Source: an uncultured Clostridia bacterium (GTDB lineage: Bacteria; Bacillota; Clostridia; Christensenellales; Aristaeellaceae). Taken from it: DNA of 64,000 nucleotides. The stretch is taken from the NCBI GenBank assembly GCA_946187775.1, contig CAMHSI010000003.1, forward strand, positions 1-64,000, given 5' to 3'. Position numbers and translations under genes: made by a program. This document shows positions 9,859-55,955 of the stretch, piece by piece (positions within the stretch are counted from its first letter, which is position 1; each line of letters begins with the position of its first letter). The notes beneath the pieces were generated by a model. The model worked only from the letters and a program-made list of their open reading frames with translations, was not told the DNA's origin and searched no databases.

Positions 9859-12800
9859 TCAGGCCAGGTCCAGCAGGTTGCCGATCCAGGCGGACAGGGA
9901 ATCATAGGGCCGGGGCATTTCCGCAGGCGGGAAGGACTGATCCAGGGACGCCGCGATCAGCGCGTCGCCGCGGTCTGTAAAGGGATGGTAATAATCCCCG
10001 GTGAAAAAGCCCGGGAAAAGCATTTCCGCAGAGGCGGGAAATTCCCGGCGGAAGCGGAGCAGGAATTCCGGAAGCAGCTCCGACGGACGCACGGCCACGG
10101 AGGCGGGGACCACGGAGGCCGGGGGAAGACCGGGATACGTTTCCTGCAGCATGGACAGGCCCACGGGGATCTCCATTTTCTTCTCCGAGGAGAAGAGGAG
10201 GGACAGGGAGGCCACACGCCTGTTGCGGAACATGGAGAGGAAATGCCAGAGGGAGGTTTTCAGGGGCGGGGGAAGCGCCTCCAGGAGGGTGGCTCCCCGG
10301 CCGGCCAGGCACAGGGTCATCTGCTCCGGCAGGAAATCGTTGCGGCTGGGATCGGCGGCCAGCTGCAGAAGCACGAGCCCGGAAAGCATCAGCAGATAGG
10401 AAAGATGCAGCAGCAGGAGGGCGCCGGCACGGGAGGGAGTTCCGCCGGAGGCCAGGGAAAGGGACATGGAAACCAGCAGGGAAAGATGGTCCGCGACAAA
10501 ATAATCCAGCGCCGCCCGGGCCCGGCGAAGGGCGACGGCGTCCGTACGCGCGGCGTGAAGCGCCTTTGTAAGCAGGGAAAGATCCCGGAGGAACCGCTCA
10601 TCCGGGCAAAGGCCGAACTCCCGGGCGAGGAGATCCGGATCCCGCAGGAGGGAGGGCAGCAGCATATAGTGTACCCCCAGGGGGATCTGGCAGGTGCGGA
10701 CGGCCTGCTCCCGGCCGCGGAGGAACAGGGAGATATCCGCCGTGCCGGCGCCCAGGTCCAGCACCATGAAACCTCCGCGGGTATCCTCCGGCGCGCAGTA
10801 ACGGAAATAGGCGCCGAGGGCGGAGCTTTCGGAGGCAAAGGAAACGGGGAGGTTTTCTTCGGAGGCAGGATAACCGCTTTCCCGCAGGACGCTGAGGCAG
10901 AGGGAGCGGAAGAGATTCATCAGGGATTCCCGGCCTTCCTTCGCCATTTCATCCGGAAGGGAGAAGCGCCAGGAAAGGGAGGGCGCTCCCTCACACCGGG
11001 CCTGGAGGGCGGACATCAGCAGGATCTGATGGAGGCAGAGCATGCCGGAGCGCCCCTTCTCCTCCTCCCATTTCAGGCCGGTGTATACAGCATCGGAGGG
11101 AGTGCTGACGAGATCCTCCAGATCCGAGGACATGAGCACCATTCCGTCCACAAAGGGAACGGGAGAAGCGCCTGGCACATTCCGGAAGATCCGCACCACC
11201 GTGGGGAACAGGGCGGATACGGGAACGGCCGGAATAAACTCACGGCGGAGCAGCTCCCGGGAGGAGGCGGGGTTGTTCAGCAGGGTGCGGACCATGACGG
11301 GACCGTTGAGGGGCTTGCGCTGCCGGCTGAAGGCGACGACGGCGGAGGTGCCGGAGGAGCCGAAATCCATGCAGACCTCCACGGGGCAGCCCTCCACGGC
11401 AGCGGGCCGGGGAAGCACATTGGGCAGGACGCCCATGGTCTGATCCTCCCGAAGGAGGGAGAAACAGAGGGGAAAGGATTCAAAACGGGCGGAGAAGCGA
11501 TTCTCGGCAACGGCGTCAACATCGGTGAATTCACCGCCCTCGGGCAGGACACGGAGGGTGTAAGCCTCGGGCATATGGGCATAGACAAAATACGCTTTCC
11601 AGTCCTCCGGGGGAAGCGGAAGGGAGGGCCAGAGGGCGAGGGTCGGAATATCATGGGAATAGAGGTTCAGGACTTCCTCCGGGCCATAGGTGCGGACCAT
11701 GCGCACGGGGAAAGCGCCGTCCAGGGTGAGGACCACACGGTAGGAGCCTTCCTCCGCACGCTCAAAGGAAAGGAGGCCGGGCTGCAGCAGGGTGCGGCCT
11801 TCCGGAAGGACGCAGAGGGCCCGGCCGAATTCCGGCGAAAGGGGAGGAAGCACCGCGTCCGGCGGGATTTCCGCCGCTTCCTGATCGGGATCGGCAGGAG
11901 GAGCCGGCCAGAGGGCACACATGGAGGACAGCAGGGCATCCCCGATGACATCCCGCCCCCGGGCGGGGAAAACCGTGAGCAGATCCGAGAAGAGATTCAT
12001 TGCCGCAAGGGGGAGGGATTCCCCCAGGGACTCGCGCAGGACCGTCTGCATGGAGGGGGATTTCGGATCCCAGGGCCAGACGAATTCCGGCGCCCGGCGG
12101 TCCAGCGGGTTTTCCGCCTCCTCCAGGAGGGAGAGGGCGGAGGAACGCACCTCCGGCAGCAGGGAGGGAGACCGGGACAGCATTCCGGCGAGATTCCGGA
12201 CCAGGGCGTCCCGGTAATCATCCGAGGAGGCGGAGAGGACGGAACATTCGGCGGCGAGGCGGCCCAGGGTGTACTCCTCACCGGCGGAGCGGGGGCTTTC
12301 CAGAAGAAGCCGGGAGCTTTCCCGGGCAAAGGGAACATCCCGGTAGAGGTAGAGCACCTCCTCGGGAACACCGGTGCAGGCGGAAGCTGGGAAGGAGGGA
12401 GACCCCGCCAGGACGGAGCCGAGCAGATCATCCCCGGAAAACCGCTCCCAGCGGCAGGACTCTTTGCGGACGCTGCCGGAATATGCGGAAAGGGAGAACA
12501 GGCCGCAGACCGCCCGGATCCTGGTTTTCAGGGCACGGTCCTCCCTGAAGGGCTCCGGATCCCGGGAAAGATCCCGGAGGAACTCCCGGAGGAAGACCCC
12601 GAGCCGGGAAGACGCTTTTTCCCCGGAGAGGGCGCCGGCAAAGGCATTCAGCCGCTCCAGGAGCAGCATCCGGTCCCCTTCGCCCAGGGAATTGCAGGGA
12701 TCGGAGAAGATCCCTTTTTCCCGGTCAAACCAGGTGACGAAGGAAGGAACCAGGGGAGTACAGGCCGCGGTTCTCCGGGCGGGGAGGAAATCCTCCCCGG

Positions 12801-15012
12801 GAAGGACCAGGGCAAAGGGATACGCATCCCCCTCCCGATCCAGGGAAAGGACGAAAACCTTCTCCGCGCGGCGGGCGGAGAGCCAGCAGCGGGAAACGGG
12901 AGAATCCCCGGAAACGCAGGAGGAGACCAGGGAGGCTTCGCCGGGACGGAGGGAGCGGTACTGCCGGAGCAGGAGCATGGCCAGCAGGCCCCGGCGCTCC
13001 GCGACGGCGCTTTCCGGCGGGGTTTCCTCCGGCAGGAGGGAGAGCACATTCCGAAGGGTGAGCAGGGGAGATTCCGGAATCAGGTCCGGCAGCAGGGGAA
13101 GGGCGGGCATGCCGCCGCCGGACAGGAAGCGGCAGCCGGAAAGCTCCTCCGCGCAGAGGGAAAGGGACTGATCCAGCAGGAAGACAAAGGGATCCGCCGG
13201 GACAAGATCCTTACAGGCGGACTGCAGCGCCTTCCAGCGGTTTTTCGCATCCGCGGCGGGAAGATCCCGGAAAAGCGGGGACGGAATCCGCAGGGAGGCG
13301 TCGGCGGGATCCGCGGCGCAAAGCTGCTCCAGGGCGCGCCCCGCTTCGGGAGTGAGGCATGTTCCGTCGTAGGGACCGGCATGCTGCAGGCGGGAAACCG
13401 GCAGGGCGGACACCTGGGACTGGACGGAAACGGGATCCAGCTCCGCCTCGCAGCGGGCGACGGCCGCCTTCAGCAGGCGGATCCGCCGCTCAGCCTTCAG
13501 GAAGGCCAGGTGATCTGCATATTCCGTGGGGGAGGCGGCTTTTTTCTCCGCGTCTCGCAGGGCGGAACGACAGCGGTTCAGGCAGTCCAGCCGTACCTGG
13601 AGGGAACGGTAGCCGCCCAGGGAGGAGAGAATGCCGGAACGGGCGCGGCCTTCTTCCTCCAGCTGCTGCTCCATGGCCGCCAGGCGGCGGGCAAGCTTTT
13701 CCTCCTCAGTATCCGCCAGGGAATCACGATGCACGGGGCGGACGGCATCCAGCCCGGATTCCCGCGCTTCCGCCACGGAGGTATCATATTCGGAGGCAAC
13801 GGTGATATACCGCCCGCAGGCGTTGACCGCCTGCTGCCAGAGGGTGGCGGCCTCCGGGGAATCGCGGAGGGCGGAAGGGACGGAACGGAAGAGACGCAGG
13901 ATGTTCGAGAGAAGCATCCGGAGGGTTTTCCCGGCCTGCTCCGGAAGGGCAGCAAGGGCCGCGGGATCCGGGACATCGGAAAAAAGACGGCGGAGAACGG
14001 CCGTACGGGGGTTCACCGTCAGGGAGCGCAGGCGGGAAGGACGGGAAAGGAAATTTTGCAGGGAGGGGAACACATCGGAGAGCATCCAGGCCATCCAGTT
14101 TACCCGGGCGGCGAAGACGGGAGCCTGGTCCCCGAGGGACGACAGGGAAAGAATCCCGTCGGTTTCCCGGGTATGGAGGCCGGGGGCGGGCTCCGTTTCC
14201 CCGCCCAGGACAGCGCCGAGGATCCGGGCGGTGGACAGGGCCAGCAGCCGGCCGGATTCCCCGGACTCCGCAAGGGAGGAAGGCAGGGACAGCAGCCAGG
14301 CAGCATCCGCCCCGCGGGCCGGGGCATCCCCGGATAAGCGAAGCAGGGCACGGTCCTCCATGGCCTGCAGCGTACCCCGAAGAACGGGACGCACGGATTC
14401 GGGCAGGGGGGAGGACACTTCGGAAAGACCGATCAGATATACAGACATCGGTCTGTTTTTAAGCAGCTCCCGCAGCTCCTGCAGAAGCACCAGGAGAATG
14501 CCGGCGGAAAAAGGATCGCTCAGATCCGCCAGGAGAAACAAACGGACCGGATCCTCCGGATCCCGGCCGGAAGGAAACTCCCCAAGCCAGGAGAAAAAGG
14601 GCTGCAGGGAGGAAGACTCCCCACGGCGGAGCAGATCCGAGAAGGACCATTCCACGGCTTCCCGGTCCGTTGCGATGGACAGGGGGAGCCCCCGGCCCCG
14701 GAGGGCCGAAATCAGGACGGAGGCATCCGGATCCTCCGTCAGCTCCCGGAGGGAACGGAAGGAGGGAACGCAGGAAGCAAAGGCAACTCCTGCGGGAAAA
14801 ACGGCGTTCTTTCCTGAAAAGCCCGGCAGGCGCCGGCAGGCGGAAAGCCCTGACGCCAGCTCCGCCGCCTCAGCGCAGGATTCCTGATCCTGGGAAAGGC
14901 TGAAGACATTCAGCTGTTCCACGGGCAGGGAAACGCCGCAGGAAAGCGCTGTGAAAAGATCCGGCAGGAGCTTTTGGGCGGCGGTGCCGATGCTGAGCAG
15001 GAAGGAAGACAA
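9859..15012 (-). CDS. Giant tubulin-like / Hsp70-actin-like fusion protein
   Basis: One intact frame encodes 1717 residues. The C-terminal third (about 1210-1640) has the actin/Hsp70 ATPase pattern: phosphate-1 loop VCMDFGSSGTSAVVAF, phosphate-2 loop VLDLGAGTADISLF (about 1415), and adenosine loop LCLAGRGATLLEAL (about 1570). The N-terminal 250 residues look like a decayed tubulin/FtsZ fold: an initial FLLSIGTAAQKLL strand-loop-helix, and ADLSDPFSAGILLVLLQEL where tubulins have the GGGTGSG loop. Residues about 435-560 are charged and probably coiled coil. There is no signal peptide or clear membrane span. TTG at 15012 is chosen because AAAGGAG lies 8 nt upstream; GTG at 15021 overlaps that site. 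Related large tubulin-like and Hsp70-like proteins occur in Clostridia, usually as separate genes. Function is unknown. Confidence 0.82.
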   Translation of the reverse strand: MSSFLLSIGTAAQKLLPDLFTALSCGVSLPVEQLNVFSLSQDQESCAEAAELASGLSACRRLPGFSGKNAVFPAGVAFASCVPSFRSLRELTEDPDASVLISALRGRGLPLSIATDREAVEWSFSDLLRRGESSSLQPFFSWLGEFPSGRDPEDPVRLFLLADLSDPFSAGILLVLLQELRELLKNRPMSVYLIGLSEVSSPLPESVRPVLRGTLQAMEDRALLRLSGDAPARGADAAWLLSLPSSLAESGESGRLLALSTARILGAVLGGETEPAPGLHTRETDGILSLSSLGDQAPVFAARVNWMAWMLSDVFPSLQNFLSRPSRLRSLTVNPRTAVLRRLFSDVPDPAALAALPEQAGKTLRMLLSNILRLFRSVPSALRDSPEAATLWQQAVNACGRYITVASEYDTSVAEARESGLDAVRPVHRDSLADTEEEKLARRLAAMEQQLEEEGRARSGILSSLGGYRSLQVRLDCLNRCRSALRDAEKKAASPTEYADHLAFLKAERRIRLLKAAVARCEAELDPVSVQSQVSALPVSRLQHAGPYDGTCLTPEAGRALEQLCAADPADASLRIPSPLFRDLPAADAKNRWKALQSACKDLVPADPFVFLLDQSLSLCAEELSGCRFLSGGGMPALPLLPDLIPESPLLTLRNVLSLLPEETPPESAVAERRGLLAMLLLRQYRSLRPGEASLVSSCVSGDSPVSRCWLSARRAEKVFVLSLDREGDAYPFALVLPGEDFLPARRTAACTPLVPSFVTWFDREKGIFSDPCNSLGEGDRMLLLERLNAFAGALSGEKASSRLGVFLREFLRDLSRDPEPFREDRALKTRIRAVCGLFSLSAYSGSVRKESCRWERFSGDDLLGSVLAGSPSFPASACTGVPEEVLYLYRDVPFARESSRLLLESPRSAGEEYTLGRLAAECSVLSASSDDYRDALVRNLAGMLSRSPSLLPEVRSSALSLLEEAENPLDRRAPEFVWPWDPKSPSMQTVLRESLGESLPLAAMNLFSDLLTVFPARGRDVIGDALLSSMCALWPAPPADPDQEAAEIPPDAVLPPLSPEFGRALCVLPEGRTLLQPGLLSFERAEEGSYRVVLTLDGAFPVRMVRTYGPEEVLNLYSHDIPTLALWPSLPLPPEDWKAYFVYAHMPEAYTLRVLPEGGEFTDVDAVAENRFSARFESFPLCFSLLREDQTMGVLPNVLPRPAAVEGCPVEVCMDFGSSGTSAVVAFSRQRKPLNGPVMVRTLLNNPASSRELLRREFIPAVPVSALFPTVVRIFRNVPGASPVPFVDGMVLMSSDLEDLVSTPSDAVYTGLKWEEEKGRSGMLCLHQILLMSALQARCEGAPSLSWRFSLPDEMAKEGRESLMNLFRSLCLSVLRESGYPASEENLPVSFASESSALGAYFRYCAPEDTRGGFMVLDLGAGTADISLFLRGREQAVRTCQIPLGVHYMLLPSLLRDPDLLAREFGLCPDERFLRDLSLLTKALHAARTDAVALRRARAALDYFVADHLSLLVSMSLSLASGGTPSRAGALLLLHLSYLLMLSGLVLLQLAADPSRNDFLPEQMTLCLAGRGATLLEALPPPLKTSLWHFLSMFRNRRVASLSLLFSSEKKMEIPVGLSMLQETYPGLPPASVVPASVAVRPSELLPEFLLRFRREFPASAEMLFPGFFTGDYYHPFTDRGDALIAASLDQSFPPAEMPRPYDSLSAWIGNLLDLA

Positions 15013-15033
15013 GGCGATCACTCCTTTAGCTGT

Positions 15034-48606: not shown

Positions 48607-49662
48607 TCAAAGCGTATTTGTGACTGCGGTTTTTTCCGCAAGACGCAGGGCGTCTATAAAAGGAGCCAGATCACCGTTCATGACATTGGCCACCCGGTTG
48701 ACCGTAAGGCCGATACGGTGATCCACCACATAATCATGGTTAAAATAATAGGTTCTGATTTTATCGCTGCGATCGCCCCAGCCGATCTGCATCCGCCGGT
48801 CCCGGAACCGGGATTCGGCCTCGGCGCGCTGCTTCTGGTCCAGCAGCCTGGATCGCAGGACTTTCAGCGCCTTGGCCTTGTTTTCCAGCTGGCTGCGCTC
48901 ATCCTGGCAGGTTACAACGGTGCCGGAAGGCAGGTGGGTGATACGGACGGCGCTGTCCGTTGTATTGACGCCCTGGCCGCCGTGGCCGGAGGCGTGGAAA
49001 ACATCGATCCGGAGATCAGAGGGGTTGATTTCCAGCTCCACTTCTTCAGCCTCCGGGAAAACGGCGACGGTGGCGGTGGAGGTATGGATGCGGCCGCTGC
49101 TCTCCGTGACAGGGACACGTTTCACGCAGTGGACACCGCTTTCGAACTTCATCCTGGCGAAGGCATCCTGCCCGGAAATCATCAGGAGGGCCTCATTGAC
49201 CCCGCCGAGATCGGAATCACTCAGGGAAAGAATTTCGAAGGACAGGGAGTTCCGGTCCGCGTATTTCTGGTACATACGGAGCAGGTCCGCGGAAAACAGC
49301 GCGGCTTCCGCGCCGCCGACCCCGGCCCGGATTTCCAGGATCACATTCCGGGAATCCATCGGATCCGGGGGAACCAGCAGGAGCTTCAGCTCCTCGGTGA
49401 GCTTTTCCTGCAGGGGAGAGAGGTCCGCCAGCTCGGAGGCCGCCTCCGCGGAGAAATCCGGATCGGAAAGCAATTCCCGGGCTTCCCGGATCTGGCGGGA
49501 AACAGACAGGTATTCATGATATTTTTCAAAAAGAGGCTGCAGGCCGGACCGCTCCTTCAGAAGGACCTGGTATTTCTCATAATCCTGGAAAATTTCGGGC
49601 TGGGAAAGGGCTTCATCCAGCTCCCGGCAGCGATCCAGCAGCGCATCCAGCTTGTTAAACAT
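48607..49662 (-). CDS. prfA: Peptide chain release factor 1
   Basis: The 351-residue factor reads UAA and UAG stops. GHGGQGVNTTDSAVRI carries the GGQ peptidyl hydrolysis motif, and the codon-recognition domain contains RVPVTESSGRIHTSTATVAV; the PVT matches the RF1 PxT tripeptide. ATG at 49662 has GGAGG 4 nt upstream and overlaps prmC by 8 nt; PrmC methylates the GGQ glutamine. Confidence 0.96.
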   Translation of the reverse strand: MFNKLDALLDRCRELDEALSQPEIFQDYEKYQVLLKERSGLQPLFEKYHEYLSVSRQIREARELLSDPDFSAEAASELADLSPLQEKLTEELKLLLVPPDPMDSRNVILEIRAGVGGAEAALFSADLLRMYQKYADRNSLSFEILSLSDSDLGGVNEALLMISGQDAFARMKFESGVHCVKRVPVTESSGRIHTSTATVAVFPEAEEVELEINPSDLRIDVFHASGHGGQGVNTTDSAVRITHLPSGTVVTCQDERSQLENKAKALKVLRSRLLDQKQRAEAESRFRDRRMQIGWGDRSDKIRTYYFNHDYVVDHRIGLTVNRVANVMNGDLAPFIDALRLAEKTAVTNTL

Positions 49663-50509
49663 AATTCCTCCCGGGAGAAAAGACGGCAAGGATCATCCGA
49701 TCCACGCCGCTGAGATCTTTGCGGACGACAATATCCGAGGCGCCTGCCTTGCGGAGCAGGGCCGAGACGGCGGCGGATTCCCCGAAACCGAGCTCCATCA
49801 GCAGCTTTCCCCCGGCTTTCAGGACACGGGGCGCATCCGAAGCAATCCGCCGGTAGCAGTCCAGGCCGTCGGTGCCGCCGCTGAGGGCGAGGACCGGTTC
49901 CCGCAGGACCTCCGGCTGGAGGGAAGGGCACTCGCCGGCGGGAATATACGGCGGATTGGAAACAACCAGATCGAAGGAATCCTTCGGAAACTCCGACATC
50001 AGATCACTTTGGGAAAAGGATACCCGGACATCCAGCGAGGCCGCATTGCCCCGGGCAACGGCGAGGGCATCTTCGGAGATATCGGAAAGGGTTACGGAAC
50101 AACCAGGCCGCTCCGCGGCAATCGTCAGCCCGATGCAGCCGCTTCCGGCGCACAGGTCCAGCACACGGAGGTTTGCCCCGTACGGAAGCAGGTCCAGCGC
50201 CCAGCGGCACAGCTCTTCCGTTTCGGGACGGGGAATCAGCACACGTTTGTCCACCCTGAAGAAACGGCCGCAAAAAGGTGCCTCTCCAAGAATATACTGA
50301 AGAGGCTCACGGGTGAGGCGGCGATCGGCGAGCGCGGCGAAGGATTCCAGGGTATCCGGATCCAGGACCGTATCCGTGTCCAGCCGAAGGGACAGGGGAG
50401 GCCGGCGGCAGAGGAAGGAAAGAATCAGCGCGCTGTCTGTTTCCGGATCCGGGATTCCGGCCTGCCGGAAACGGGCTGCCGTTTGCCGGAGGAGTGCACA
50501 GGGGGTCAT
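49655..50509 (-). CDS. prmC: Release factor glutamine methyltransferase
   Basis: The 284-residue enzyme has an N-terminal helical domain that binds the release factor ([34 protein letters not shown]), a SAM site [16 protein letters not shown] and the catalytic NPPY (VVSNPPYIP). It overlaps yqhQ by 4 nt and prfA by 8 nt. Confidence 0.96.
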
Positions 50510-51570
50510 GCTTCGGGAAGGGCGGGCCCCTCTTCGGGAAGGGCCGCCGTACGGACGTACCCGGGCTCCGATTCCTCATAGGATTTAAAGATGCCCCAGC
50601 CTTCCGGGGTCTTTGGCGTTCCCTCCGGGAAGCCGTTCAGGACCACATTGACGGAAACAATCGCGCATTCGAGCATGGAGGCATCGGGCTCACGGGTGGT
50701 GAGGCGCTGCAGCTGCATGCCGGGAATGCGAAGGATGCGGGCGATCCGGGAATCGGAATGCGCCAACCCCATGAGGACTTCATAGCTTACGCCGGCCACA
50801 ACGGGCAGCATTGCCAGATGGAAGAGGAAACGCAGGAAGAAATTGCTGATGGGAACCAGCAGGTTCAGCACGAGGAACAGCAGGATGCTGATGGAAAACA
50901 CGATCAGCAGGAAAGCGGTTCCGCACCGGGGGTGCAGGCGGGAAAAGGTCTGCGCGTTTTCCGGGGTAAGGGGAAGGCCGGATTCCTGGCAATGGACGGA
51001 TTTGTGCTCGGCGCCGTGATACTGGAAGGTGCGGCGGATATCGGGAACAAAGCTGACGAGGAACATATAGCCCATCAGGAGCGCAATCTTCAGGAGGCCG
51101 CCCAGGAGGGTGTAGCCCACAGGGCCCATACCGGAGCTTTTCAGCACGGATTCAAGACCGGCGGGAAGGGCCATAAAGAGGCCCAGGGAAAGGGCAACCG
51201 CCAGGACAATGGCAACGGCCATCACGATTTTATCCACGCCCTTGCCCAGCTTCTTCGCAAGCCATTTTTCGAACTTGGTGGGCTCCTCATCCAGGATGCC
51301 GAGCATTTTTGTGGCATCGCTGAGGGTGTTCATTCCGTAATACAGCATGGTGCACATATTGACGATGCCGCGCAGGAAGGGCTTTCCCATCCAGGGATGC
51401 TTTTCCTTCATAGGGACAAAGGGGGTCAGCTTGGTGACCATCGTTCCGTCCGGCCGGCGGACGGTCACGGCGGTGGCGTTCGGAGAGCGCATCATAACGC
51501 CTTCCAGGACGGCCTGGCCGCCGACATCAAATTTTCTTTTTCCCCCGATGGGGCAGGATTTATCAGACAT
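50506..51570 (-). CDS. yqhQ: DUF1385 membrane protein (YqhQ-like)
   Basis: The 354-residue protein has the DUF1385 core: [57 protein letters not shown] and [22 protein letters not shown]. About four membrane segments are visible between residues 115 and 270. It is conserved next to prmC-prfA in Firmicutes. Function unproven; the His/Glu/Cys blocks suggest metal binding. ATG at 51570 has GGAGG 6 nt upstream. Confidence 0.93.
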
Positions 51571-51607
51571 AATCAACCTCCGGAATTAAACACTTTTAAC
51601 AGAGGCA

Positions 51608-53075: not shown

Positions 53076-53109
53076 AAAAGAAGGATGCGGCAGCAGGCCG
53101 CATCCTTTT
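53074..53109. terminator. Bidirectional terminator
   Basis: AAGGATGCGGC (53081-53091), loop AGCAG, GCCGCATCCTT (53097-53107), with T tracts on both strands. Shared with the convergent rho gene. Confidence 0.92.
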
Positions 53110-53122
53110 CTGATTCGAATGC

Positions 53123-54862
53123 TTATCTGTTCATCAGGGCGAACCAGTCTTTCATCTTCAGCAGGAGATCCTCGTTGGTCTCCGCTTTTTCCATCATGGA
53201 AAGAAGCTGGGGAATGGCGACGGAGGAAGAGGTGGATCCGAGAAGGGTCCGGATCAGGGACAGGCCTTCCTTCTGCCGGTCATTCAGGAGGATATCGGCG
53301 TTTTTGGTAAAGCTGTGCTGCAGATTGAGCGCGGGGGTGATGCCGGCGCGGGCAACCGCGAGATCCAGGGTCAGCTCCATATTGGCTGTTCCCTTGAATT
53401 CCTCCACAACGGAATCATCCACCTTGGAGCCGGTTGCGATATCCATGGCCGCGATTACGGTAAGGCTTCCGCCCTCCTTGCAGGAGCGGGCGGCACCGAA
53501 CATCCGTTTGGCGCGGAAAAGGCTTGCGGGATTCACCATGCCGGGAAGACTGCGGCCCTGCTGCACGGCAGCGGTGGTATAGATCTTCGCCAGGCGGGTA
53601 AGGCTGTCCACCAGGAGGATGACGTCCTTTTTCTGCTCCACAAGGCGCATGGCGCGCTCCAGGACGATCTCCGCAAGGCGCAGGTGAGCTTCCGGTGCCT
53701 GGTCGAAACTGGAGGCGAGAACCGGACAGGGGATGGATTCACGCATCAGGGTGGCATCCTCGGGATTTACATCGATGAGCAGCATCAGCACTTCCGCATC
53801 CGGGTAATTGCTGCTGATGACGCGGGCAAAATTGCGCATCAACTGCGTTTTGCCGGTATTGGGAGGACAGAGGACGAGCCCGCGCTGGCCGAAGCCGATG
53901 GGGGCGATCAGGTCAATCAGGCGCATATCCGGCATGGAAGAATCCCCGGGGATCTCCAGGGAGATCCGGCGATCGGGATAAACCGGGGTCAGTTCATCGA
54001 AGGCAGGCCGGTTAAAGGCCTCTTCCTCCGGGACGCCGTTTACGGAAGAGATATAGAGGAGGGCGGAATACTTGTCGCCCTCGCGCTGGGGACGGATTTT
54101 TCCTTCAATGAAGTCACCGGTGCGAAGTCCGAAACGACGGATCTGCGCCATGGAGACATAGATATCCTTCGTGGAGGGGAGGAAAGACGGCGCACGCAGG
54201 AAGCCGTATCCGTCGGGATGAAGCTCCAGAATGCCGCTGCCTTCTTCGTAATTGCCGGAAGCAAGCAGCTCCTCCAGCGTCGGGGCTGAAGCGGCAGCAT
54301 CCTGGGAAGCCGCGGGAGCAAAAGGCTCGGGACTGCGGCCCTGGGCATTGTACGCAGGGGTGTAATTCGCGGTGATCCTGTGGGTGTAGGAAGGGACAGA
54401 ATCGCCGAAACGATGCTCCGGCAGCGGATTTACCACAGGAGGACGGGGCGTTTCCCGGTGGGGGGCCGCAGGCTCCTCAGCGGCAGGCTGCGGGGCAGCC
54501 GCCGGACCGAAGCGGGGCGTGAAGCCGCCGGGACGGGCAGCCGGAACCCGCTGCTGCGGGGGAAGCTGATGCCCGGAAGGCGTGGTATTCTGCCAGGCCG
54601 GACGGGCAGGGCTGCCGGACGCCTGATAAGCGGGACGCGCGTTGAAACGGGGAGCGTCCGCATTATGCCAGGCGGCCTGGAAACGGGGCTCGGCCTCGGC
54701 GGGCGCATCGGAGGAAGATTTTTCCTCGGCGTCCGGGACATTTTCCAGAATTTTACGAACGATTCCGGCTTTATCGATTCCGGAACCGAGAGAGATATTC
54801 TGCTCCTTTGCAAGCTTGCGAAGCTGCATGACGGTCATTGCTGACAGTTCTTTTTCCGTCAT
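53123..54862 (-). CDS. rho: Rho-family transcription termination factor, divergent
   Basis: The 579-residue protein begins with a Rho N-terminal helical domain (VMQLRKLAKEQNISLGSGIDK), followed by about 150 low-complexity Pro/Ala/Arg residues, a cold-shock-like RNA-binding region (GILELHPDGYGFLRAPSFLPS) and the RecA-like motor. Walker A reads CPPNTGKT (about 332) instead of PPKAGKT, and LLIDVNPED (about 361) replaces LLIDERPEE, losing the glutamate counted as catalytic in E. coli Rho (E211). LLVDSLTRLA, AARSCKEGGSLTVIA and EEFKGTANMELTLD remain. AAGGAGG precedes the ATG. It is either a specialised or a weak-ATPase Rho. It follows a methyltransferase gene by 15 bp. Confidence 0.9.
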   Translation of the reverse strand: MTEKELSAMTVMQLRKLAKEQNISLGSGIDKAGIVRKILENVPDAEEKSSSDAPAEAEPRFQAAWHNADAPRFNARPAYQASGSPARPAWQNTTPSGHQLPPQQRVPAARPGGFTPRFGPAAAPQPAAEEPAAPHRETPRPPVVNPLPEHRFGDSVPSYTHRITANYTPAYNAQGRSPEPFAPAASQDAAASAPTLEELLASGNYEEGSGILELHPDGYGFLRAPSFLPSTKDIYVSMAQIRRFGLRTGDFIEGKIRPQREGDKYSALLYISSVNGVPEEEAFNRPAFDELTPVYPDRRISLEIPGDSSMPDMRLIDLIAPIGFGQRGLVLCPPNTGKTQLMRNFARVISSNYPDAEVLMLLIDVNPEDATLMRESIPCPVLASSFDQAPEAHLRLAEIVLERAMRLVEQKKDVILLVDSLTRLAKIYTTAAVQQGRSLPGMVNPASLFRAKRMFGAARSCKEGGSLTVIAAMDIATGSKVDDSVVEEFKGTANMELTLDLAVARAGITPALNLQHSFTKNADILLNDRQKEGLSLIRTLLGSTSSSVAIPQLLSMMEKAETNEDLLLKMKDWFALMNR

Positions 54863-54877
54863 GAATACAGTACCTCC

Positions 54878-55891
54878 TTAAGGGTTGTTCTTCAAAAAAA
54901 CGACATCCCGGACAACCGCCTGCTCCACCTCGTGGCGGAGATGCATGAAACGGTCCTCCTCGCAGGGGGAAAGGCCGGCATCACGCGCGGCATCGAAAAC
55001 CTGCCGGGCAGGAAGGGTAAGCGTGTTGAAACTGAGGGCCATGACGCCTCCGGGCAGCAAGGCCTTCTTCCAGCGGGGAAGGGCGCGCCGGAGCAGGCTG
55101 ACAAAGGACTCGGGCTTGCTGCCGAAGGAAGGCGCGTGCTGGATCCCGTAGGGAAGATCCGCAACCAGCAGATGGGCCGGGTGATGACGGCAGAGGGCGA
55201 ACGCGTCCGCCGTATCGCCGGAGGCAAGGCGCAGGAAGCGGGTATCCTTTTGCTGAAAATGCTCCTTTGAATCGGAAAAAACGAACTCGGTAACCGGAAG
55301 AGCGGTTTTGCCGGCGGTTTCCGAAAGGGTGCGGACGGTGTGCTTCAGGAGATGGACCTTCAGGTATCTTGAGAAGAAATCCGAAGCCTCCCGGACCGCT
55401 TTGCGGTCCTGATCCAGGCCGACCGCGTTCATTCCGGCCTGCAGGGCGCAGAAACAGACGGTTCCCTTTCCGCAGAGAGGATCCAGCACCGTAAGGGGAT
55501 GATCCTCCGGGGGAAAGGACGTCAGGGAAAGCGCCATGTTGATCATCAGCCGGATGAAAGGAGCGGAGGTTTTTCCTTTATACTTCAGGATTTCGGGAAG
55601 ATCCTCCTCCAGGTAGTTCCGGCAGACAACGGGGAGGGGCAGGAGCGCATCCCCGCTTTTTTCGGCCATAAAGGCGACGGAAGAGTGACCGGAAAGGAAG
55701 CTGACCTCAGCCCCGGAAAGGGGACGGCATTCGAAGGAAAGAAAATCCGCGCCGCCCATGGATTCCTGAACAATTTCACAATCGATGGAAAGGGAATGAA
55801 GCATGGAAAGCAGCTCATAACGGGAAAGGCGATTCACGGAATCGCGATAGCGAATATTCGCATGCTTATCCAACCCGAACGTATAAACCAT
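54878..55891 (-). CDS. TRM11/UPF0020-like SAM-dependent methyltransferase
   Basis: The 337-residue protein has an N-terminal substrate-binding region without clear motifs and a C-terminal Rossmann methyltransferase: VLDPLCGKGTVCFCALQAG (SAM), GLDQDRKAVREA (motif II), and VADLPYGIQHAP in place of the NPPY-type motif, as in archaeal and eukaryotic Trm11 (DPPYG). It probably methylates guanine in tRNA or a related nucleic acid. AGAGG precedes the ATG. Upstream of rho in the same unit. Confidence 0.8.
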   Translation of the reverse strand: MVYTFGLDKHANIRYRDSVNRLSRYELLSMLHSLSIDCEIVQESMGGADFLSFECRPLSGAEVSFLSGHSSVAFMAEKSGDALLPLPVVCRNYLEEDLPEILKYKGKTSAPFIRLMINMALSLTSFPPEDHPLTVLDPLCGKGTVCFCALQAGMNAVGLDQDRKAVREASDFFSRYLKVHLLKHTVRTLSETAGKTALPVTEFVFSDSKEHFQQKDTRFLRLASGDTADAFALCRHHPAHLLVADLPYGIQHAPSFGSKPESFVSLLRRALPRWKKALLPGGVMALSFNTLTLPARQVFDAARDAGLSPCEEDRFMHLRHEVEQAVVRDVVFLKNNP

Positions 55892-55926: not shown

Positions 55927-55955
55927 ATTATAACAAATGAAATCCTTGATTTCAA
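55927..55955 (-). promoter_or_regulatory. Promoter of the methyltransferase-rho unit
   Basis: TTGAAA and TATAAT, 17 bp apart on the minus strand, lie 36 bp before the start. Confidence 0.85.

Follow-up and report, generated by a model that had tools for sequence, protein, structure and literature searches.

An ATPase-site-degenerate Rho as the sole Rho found in a genus of gut and rumen bacteria

The sole Rho of a lineage of gut and rumen bacteria has, with a probability that we put at roughly 0.55, lost efficient ATP hydrolysis, and selection has preserved it as a Rho-fold protein that binds RNA. Its representative is encoded in the window (the whole stretch of 64,000 nucleotides that was analyzed). 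Loss of E211, R212 and R353 (here and below, the numbering of conserved positions follows E. coli Rho, in a sequence 100% identical to database records) is common to all 37 distinct Rhos of the window's genus and is found in none of the 45 canonical Rhos with which they were compared, a distribution that reflects neither chance nor sequencing error. We regard this ATPase-site-degenerate form as a new variant of Rho; it confirms and extends an observation made earlier, in a first-pass annotation of the same DNA.

The rho gene, its product and its surroundings

The gene lies at positions 53123..54862 on the minus strand, i.e. it is read from 54862 to 53123; the first-pass annotation had identified the open reading frame correctly and had omitted the strand. 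Its 579-aa product is a member of the transcription termination factor Rho family, as judged from profile and structure-database matches, and, given its single copy and its surroundings (see below), the rho orthologue. Both domains of the family are present: the OB-fold RNA-binding domain (PF07497, E 5e-30) and the RecA-like ATPase domain (PF00006, E 1e-15). The NF006886 profile, which names Rho, matches from residue 2 of the protein with 427.8 bits (cut-off 315); TIGR00767 does not reach its threshold (421.7 bits against 509). Among solved structures, those nearest in sequence are Rho, and by fold the best 50 PDB matches listed are all Rho.

At the N-terminus we find a helical Rho_N-like domain (residues 1–43, 54734..54862, minus strand; pLDDT about 90), even though a search of the 579-aa protein with Pfam Rho_N returned no match at E 0.001. 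It is followed by a disordered Ala/Pro-rich linker (residues 44–195, 54278..54733, minus strand) and by the OB-fold primary RNA-binding domain (residues 209–278, 54029..54238, minus strand; PF07497), in which the positions of E. coli F62, F64, R66 and Y80 are conserved. In the AlphaFold2 model, whose overall pTM of 0.50 supports the fold only, the linker has very low confidence, and helices 1–43 and most of the RecA fold have fair to high confidence.

The linker corresponds to the approximately 150 low-complexity residues that had been noted between the N-terminal and RNA-binding domains. It comprises 152 residues (21% Ala, 18% Pro), is predicted to be disordered (pLDDT mostly 28–45 over residues 44–193), and contains the motifs FQAAWHN, PAWQNT and PRFGPA. 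Since aromatic/Arg motifs are conserved throughout the genus (FQAAW in 35/37 and PRFGP in 35/37 sequences), the linker could be seen as the functional core of a protein whose main task is to form condensates, in line with the phase-separating form suggested in the first-pass annotation, or to store RNA; condensation through such a region is described for Bacteroides Rho (PMC11829017), and prion-like aggregates for C. botulinum Rho (PMC4703818). We regard this as quite improbable, because canonical Rhos too have long N-terminal regions, with up to 427 residues preceding the RNA-binding domain in canonical relatives, and because in the genus alignment conservation is higher in the folded domains than in the linker. 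Rhos with a long insertion or a disordered stretch at this place are already on record (PMC4499133, PMC11829017, PMC4703818). Thus, the linker is real, but it is not the novel part of the window Rho.

Fifteen bases upstream of rho and in the same orientation lies its conserved operon partner, a gene for a methyltransferase-like protein of 337 aa (54878..55891, minus strand), in which DPLCGKGT and DLPYG motifs were recognized by eye and which gives a weak Pfam match. This gene is found directly upstream of rho in every locus of the degenerate clade with room for it, except L089; in five other genomes of the order the methyltransferase is located elsewhere. We considered the pair as a feature specific to the degenerate clade and rejected this idea, because a relative with a canonical Rho (G058) has the same pair, which is therefore not tied to degeneration. 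Pattern matches alone point to a promoter-like TTGAAA-17-TATAAT sequence upstream of the methyltransferase and rho genes (55927..55955, minus strand) and to an intrinsic-terminator-like hairpin with a T tract directly after rho (53081..53107, minus strand). Beyond it lie four synteny markers: rpmE, encoding L31 (51772..51972, plus strand; PF01197), the gene for a DUF1385 protein (50506..51576, minus strand; PF07136), prmC (49655..50509, minus strand; PrmC_N) and a gene for a prfA-type release factor (48607..49689, minus strand; PCRF and RF-1 domains). We take these surroundings to be the familiar neighbourhood of rho in Bacillota. Elsewhere the window contains very long overlapping antisense reading frames (e.g. 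9859–15021 on the minus strand versus 9985–14337 on the plus strand), which presumably result from high GC content and codon usage.

The window genome, which is 64% complete, has one Rho. A Rho match was found in 36/45 genomes of the genus, exactly one in each; the other nine, all of them incomplete, revealed no Rho and at most weak F1/V-type ATPase-like matches. All 13 genomes that are at least 90% complete with at most 5% contamination possess one Rho, and some of the assemblies consist of only one or two contigs, several being closed or nearly closed. The first-pass annotation had suggested, from the divergent active site, that the protein might be a regulatory paralogue, and that the genome should be checked for a second, canonical rho. 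No second Rho was found in the window genome or in any of the 45 genomes of the genus, and the gene resides near rpmE, DUF1385, prmC and prfA. Single copy and surroundings together exclude a regulatory paralogue within the genomes examined, and we find the idea of one beside a canonical Rho hardly credible.

The ATPase site

The sequences LLIDVNPED and PPNTGKT, reported in the first-pass annotation, are present as described. V365 stands for E211, so that the catalytic Glu is gone, and N366 stands for the arginine valve R212 (together 53765..53770, minus strand); in the Walker A motif N335-T-G-K338-T339 (53846..53860, minus strand) N335 stands for K181, K338 is kept, and T339 is variable in the genus. 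The accompanying remark on the good preservation of the rest is correct for the fold, but not for the active site, where further residues differ. According to the alignment, R353 is replaced by G507 (53342..53344, minus strand), the arginine finger R366 by K520 (53303..53305, minus strand), R347 by L501 and L320, in the bicyclomycin/catalytic pocket, by D474 (53441..53443, minus strand); F355 is changed as well. The Walker B Asp (D265) is kept as D419 (53606..53608, minus strand), and the Q-loop has the altered sequence QGRSLPGMV (residues 435–443, 53534..53560, minus strand), near-invariant in the genus.

The roles of these residues are known: E211 is the catalytic Glu, R212 the arginine valve and R366 the arginine finger, K181 contacts the gamma-phosphate and T185 serves Mg2+ (PMC8828861, PMC11718236); in E. 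coli Rho, M186 and F355 sandwich the adenine (PMC11718236), and L320 belongs to the bicyclomycin pocket, adjacent to the Walker A Lys (PMC8828861). E211, R212, T185, R347, R353, R366 and L320 are invariant in 45/45 canonical Rhos, and K181 is not. Among the 37 genus Rhos, E211 is replaced by Val (26), Met (4), Leu (3), Ile (2) or Ala (2), and R212 by Asn (24), Thr (12) or Ala (1), i.e. not a single sequence retains the Glu or the Arg. R353 is Gly in all 37, R366 is Lys in 35 and Arg in two, R347 is changed in 35, and K181 is replaced by Asp, Asn, Gln, Gly or Glu. T185 is kept in 19/37 and is Arg, Ala, Ser, Gln or Asn in the remaining 18, and the genus Rhos have mostly Glu or Asp at M186 and Thr, Ser or Arg at F355. 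The Walker A Lys (K184), D210, D265 and R269 are intact in 37/37 sequences, the RNA-site positions 62/64/66/80 read Y/F/R/Y without exception (100% kept), and the Q-loop has been rewritten genus-wide to an almost invariant QGRS.PGM.

Simple pairwise estimates within the genus (NG86-type) put dN/dS at about 0.12 over the core and at 0.08 over the OB-fold, and the reading frame is intact in every member of the genus with a Rho match; the genus Rho is under strong purifying selection. T185, E211, R347 and K181 nevertheless rank among the most variable ATPase columns of the genus (86th–96th percentile of entropy). Columns that are invariant elsewhere and variable here, in combination with a low dN/dS, are the signature of a protein on which the constraint of catalysis has been lost and the constraint on the protein itself retained.

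The E211A substitution has been reported to inactivate E. coli Rho, and in Mycobacterium tuberculosis (Mtb) Rho the equivalent E386A abolished activity with no drastic change in oligomeric state or in ATP and RNA binding (PMC4499133). Given these effects, loss of the Glu, the valve, the finger and K181 leads us to expect a ring that binds RNA and hydrolyses little or no ATP. Slow ATP hydrolysis, one of the interpretations offered in the first-pass annotation alongside the rejected paralogue, is thus the one best supported by the sequences, and the loss is deeper than was noted there; normal ATP binding has probably been lost too. On the other hand, the invariance of the Walker A Lys, the Walker B Asp and R269 would be odd in a protein that never binds nucleotide.

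The alignment reveals no compensating Glu nearby, but it does reveal a new invariant Asp in the pocket: position 320 is Asp in 37/37 genus Rhos, Leu in 45/45 canonical Rhos, and Asn in 10 Rhos of the sister group, nine of which possess Glu211. D474 could act in place of the Glu, and the protein could then be a rewired, active ATPase, the main rival to the reading above. In such an enzyme position 320 would have taken over the carboxylate from E211, Lys520 would provide a lysine finger, and hydrolysis and termination would proceed, perhaps slowly. Position 320 adjoins the Walker A Lys in the bicyclomycin pocket (PMC8828861), and other pseudoenzymes offer precedents for a catalytic residue that has changed its place (PMC10211241). 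However, T185 (in half of the sequences), K181, R212 and F355 are gone too, so that one moved carboxylate would not restore the contacts to phosphate, Mg and base, and the role of D474 may instead be to form a pair with the Walker A Lys. Although the still normal purine bias of the genus genes (see below) speaks for an active enzyme, we consider such rewiring rather unlikely, also in view of the relatives described next.

Repeated erosion in relatives, and termination

In a FastTree tree of Rho calculated with the catalytic columns removed, three sets are grouped with support 1.0: the window's genus, a Glu-keeping sister group and a Limiplasma-like group. Members of the sister group (L076, L077, L079–L081, L085, L086 and L124) have the sequence DENPED or DECPED, i.e. 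they keep Glu211 and lack R212 and R353, with mostly Lys for R366; L087 and L088 are further diverged. In the Limiplasma-like group, L094 has GKT and DERPE and is devoid of R353 and R366, and six relatives have a GRL-type Walker A motif, in which both Lys and Thr are gone, and Ile or Val for the Glu. Erosion is graded across these lineages, and, taken together, the tree and the residue patterns indicate that the genus and the Limiplasma-like group each lost Glu211 on their own. The Glu-less Limiplasma-like lineage has Ala at position 320, in addition to its loss of the Walker A Lys and Thr, so that no compensation of the kind envisaged for D474 took place there. Glu211 has also been lost in L088 (replaced by Lys) and in the unrelated L046 of G043. 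The latter comes from a member of the order outside the degenerate clade and combines a PPKTDPT Walker A with D210G, E211Q, R269K and R366M; its degeneration is independent of that of the clade. The contigs that carry these Rhos stem mostly from rumen and gut Clostridia assemblies, which we tentatively assign to Aristaeella within Christensenellales. Some further variants were observed: L109, a divergent Rho, has SGRVNRL in place of Walker A and an intact DERPEE, G039 has a canonical Rho that is incomplete because it lies at the edge of a contig, and the G074 assembly contains two degenerate Rhos that differ from each other, L085 (of the DENPED type) and L270 (N210/E211/T212, R269T), representing either a true duplication or a mixed assembly.

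No Rho was detected in G047, a relative from the same order that is 96% complete. Together with the recurrence of ATPase-site erosion in several lineages, the existence of at least one near-complete relative devoid of Rho could mean that Rho is dispensable in the order, and that the genus protein is functionless and its gene decaying toward loss. Intact reading frames, a dN/dS of about 0.12, invariant RNA-site residues and a Q-loop that is both new and invariant all speak for a protein under selection, and make decay improbable.

In Bacilli that contain Rho the genes are purine-rich, and this bias is weaker once rho has been lost (PMC13323073). We corrected gene purine excess for replication strand and GC, with a fit on only ten canonical genomes. 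The genus (four genomes) fits the canonical-Rho relatives (z -0.6 to +0.9), and the rho-less G047 has a purine bias clearly reduced for its GC (z -3.8); the values for G046 (-1.4), the Glu-keeping sister clade (-1.4) and the Limiplasma-like clade (-1.8) fall in between, those of the two clades being lower, yet not decisive. With four genomes and a ten-genome fit, the test for lost Rho-dependent termination is negative in the genus, which suggests that termination activity may persist, in a residual or motor-free form. An initial indication from purine content was dropped, as the genus equals canonical-Rho relatives after correction for strand and GC. Gene purine content is strongly strand-dependent (mean absolute strand term about 0.02–0.06 in the 20-kb samples of genus genomes L150–L169, L184–L203 and L239–L243), consistent with replication-strand skew. 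NusG is present in 31/31 near-complete genomes and is uninformative; many genomes of the genus encode extra NusG-like proteins besides the main NusG.

How could an RNA-binding Rho of this kind act? We tentatively propose, as a possibility with the odds somewhat against it, that the genus possesses a natural pseudo-ATPase Rho, which does not translocate and terminates or modulates transcription solely by binding RNA and RNA polymerase, and that such proteins evolved repeatedly within one order. Translocation by the ring, if one is formed, would be slow or absent. The protein would load on nascent RNA via its OB-folds, with additional contacts possibly made by the disordered linker, and its contact with RNA polymerase would lead to occupancy and allosteric inactivation of the elongation complex, similar to the ATP-hydrolysis-independent pre-termination states of E. 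coli. Alternatively, it may serve as an RNA-binding scaffold. Elongation complexes inactivated by Rho have been seen without ATP hydrolysis, according to work cited in PMC9160355, and hence action by occupancy and allostery is the simplest proposal. As counterpoints, termination by E. coli Rho in vivo tracks ATPase activity and translocation (PMC9160355), and Mtb Rho does not work unless its catalytic site is competent (PMC4499133); given this dependence on catalysis, motor-free termination would be unusual.

Relation to known systems

There is debate on whether Rho must pull on the RNA or can inactivate RNA polymerase by an allosteric route that needs no translocation (Epshtein 2010, Said 2021, Hao 2021; cited in PMC9160355). 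An only Rho that lacks the catalytic site and retains its RNA site and selection is a natural experiment on this question, for which the sister lineages with Glu211 supply intermediates. It suggests that in a genus of gut and rumen bacteria useful work by Rho is possible without a motor; if true, the annotation "Rho" implies neither a motor nor sensitivity to bicyclomycin. Most key residues were reported to be conserved when more than 1200 Rhos from bacteria were surveyed (PMC4499133), and the literature searched contained no description of a sole Rho with a degenerate ATPase site.

The genus Rho shares with the canonical Rhos of the E. coli, Thermotoga maritima and Bacillus subtilis type the domain order, the OB-fold RNA site, the RecA fold, the Walker A Lys, the Walker B Asp and R269, with a core identity to E. 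coli Rho of about 40–45%. Unlike them, it lacks the catalytic Glu, the arginine valve, R353, R366, K181 and F355, and its Q-loop reads GRSLPGM versus the canonical GKVLTGG. Mtb Rho (7oqh) resembles it in having a long N-terminal insertion, a weak motor and an altered position-320 pocket, where Met confers resistance to bicyclomycin (PMC8828861), but it is a true motor, with the Glu (E386), the valve and the finger in place (PMC4499133). The Rhos of C. botulinum and Bacteroides have a disordered region in the N-terminal part as well, and the available portions of the respective reports (PMC4703818, PMC11829017) describe no loss of ATPase residues for them. The short form of paralog_Rho2 (NCBIfam NF041509) shares the Rho fold and matches the window protein with 320.6 bits, which is far under the cut-off of 628, and no second Rho was found in the genus. 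The alpha subunit of F1-ATPase offers a parallel among RecA-like ring proteins, as a non-catalytic subunit that keeps the P-loop and lacks the catalytic Glu. However, the alpha subunit alternates with active subunits in its ring, whereas the protomers of a genus Rho ring would all be the same.
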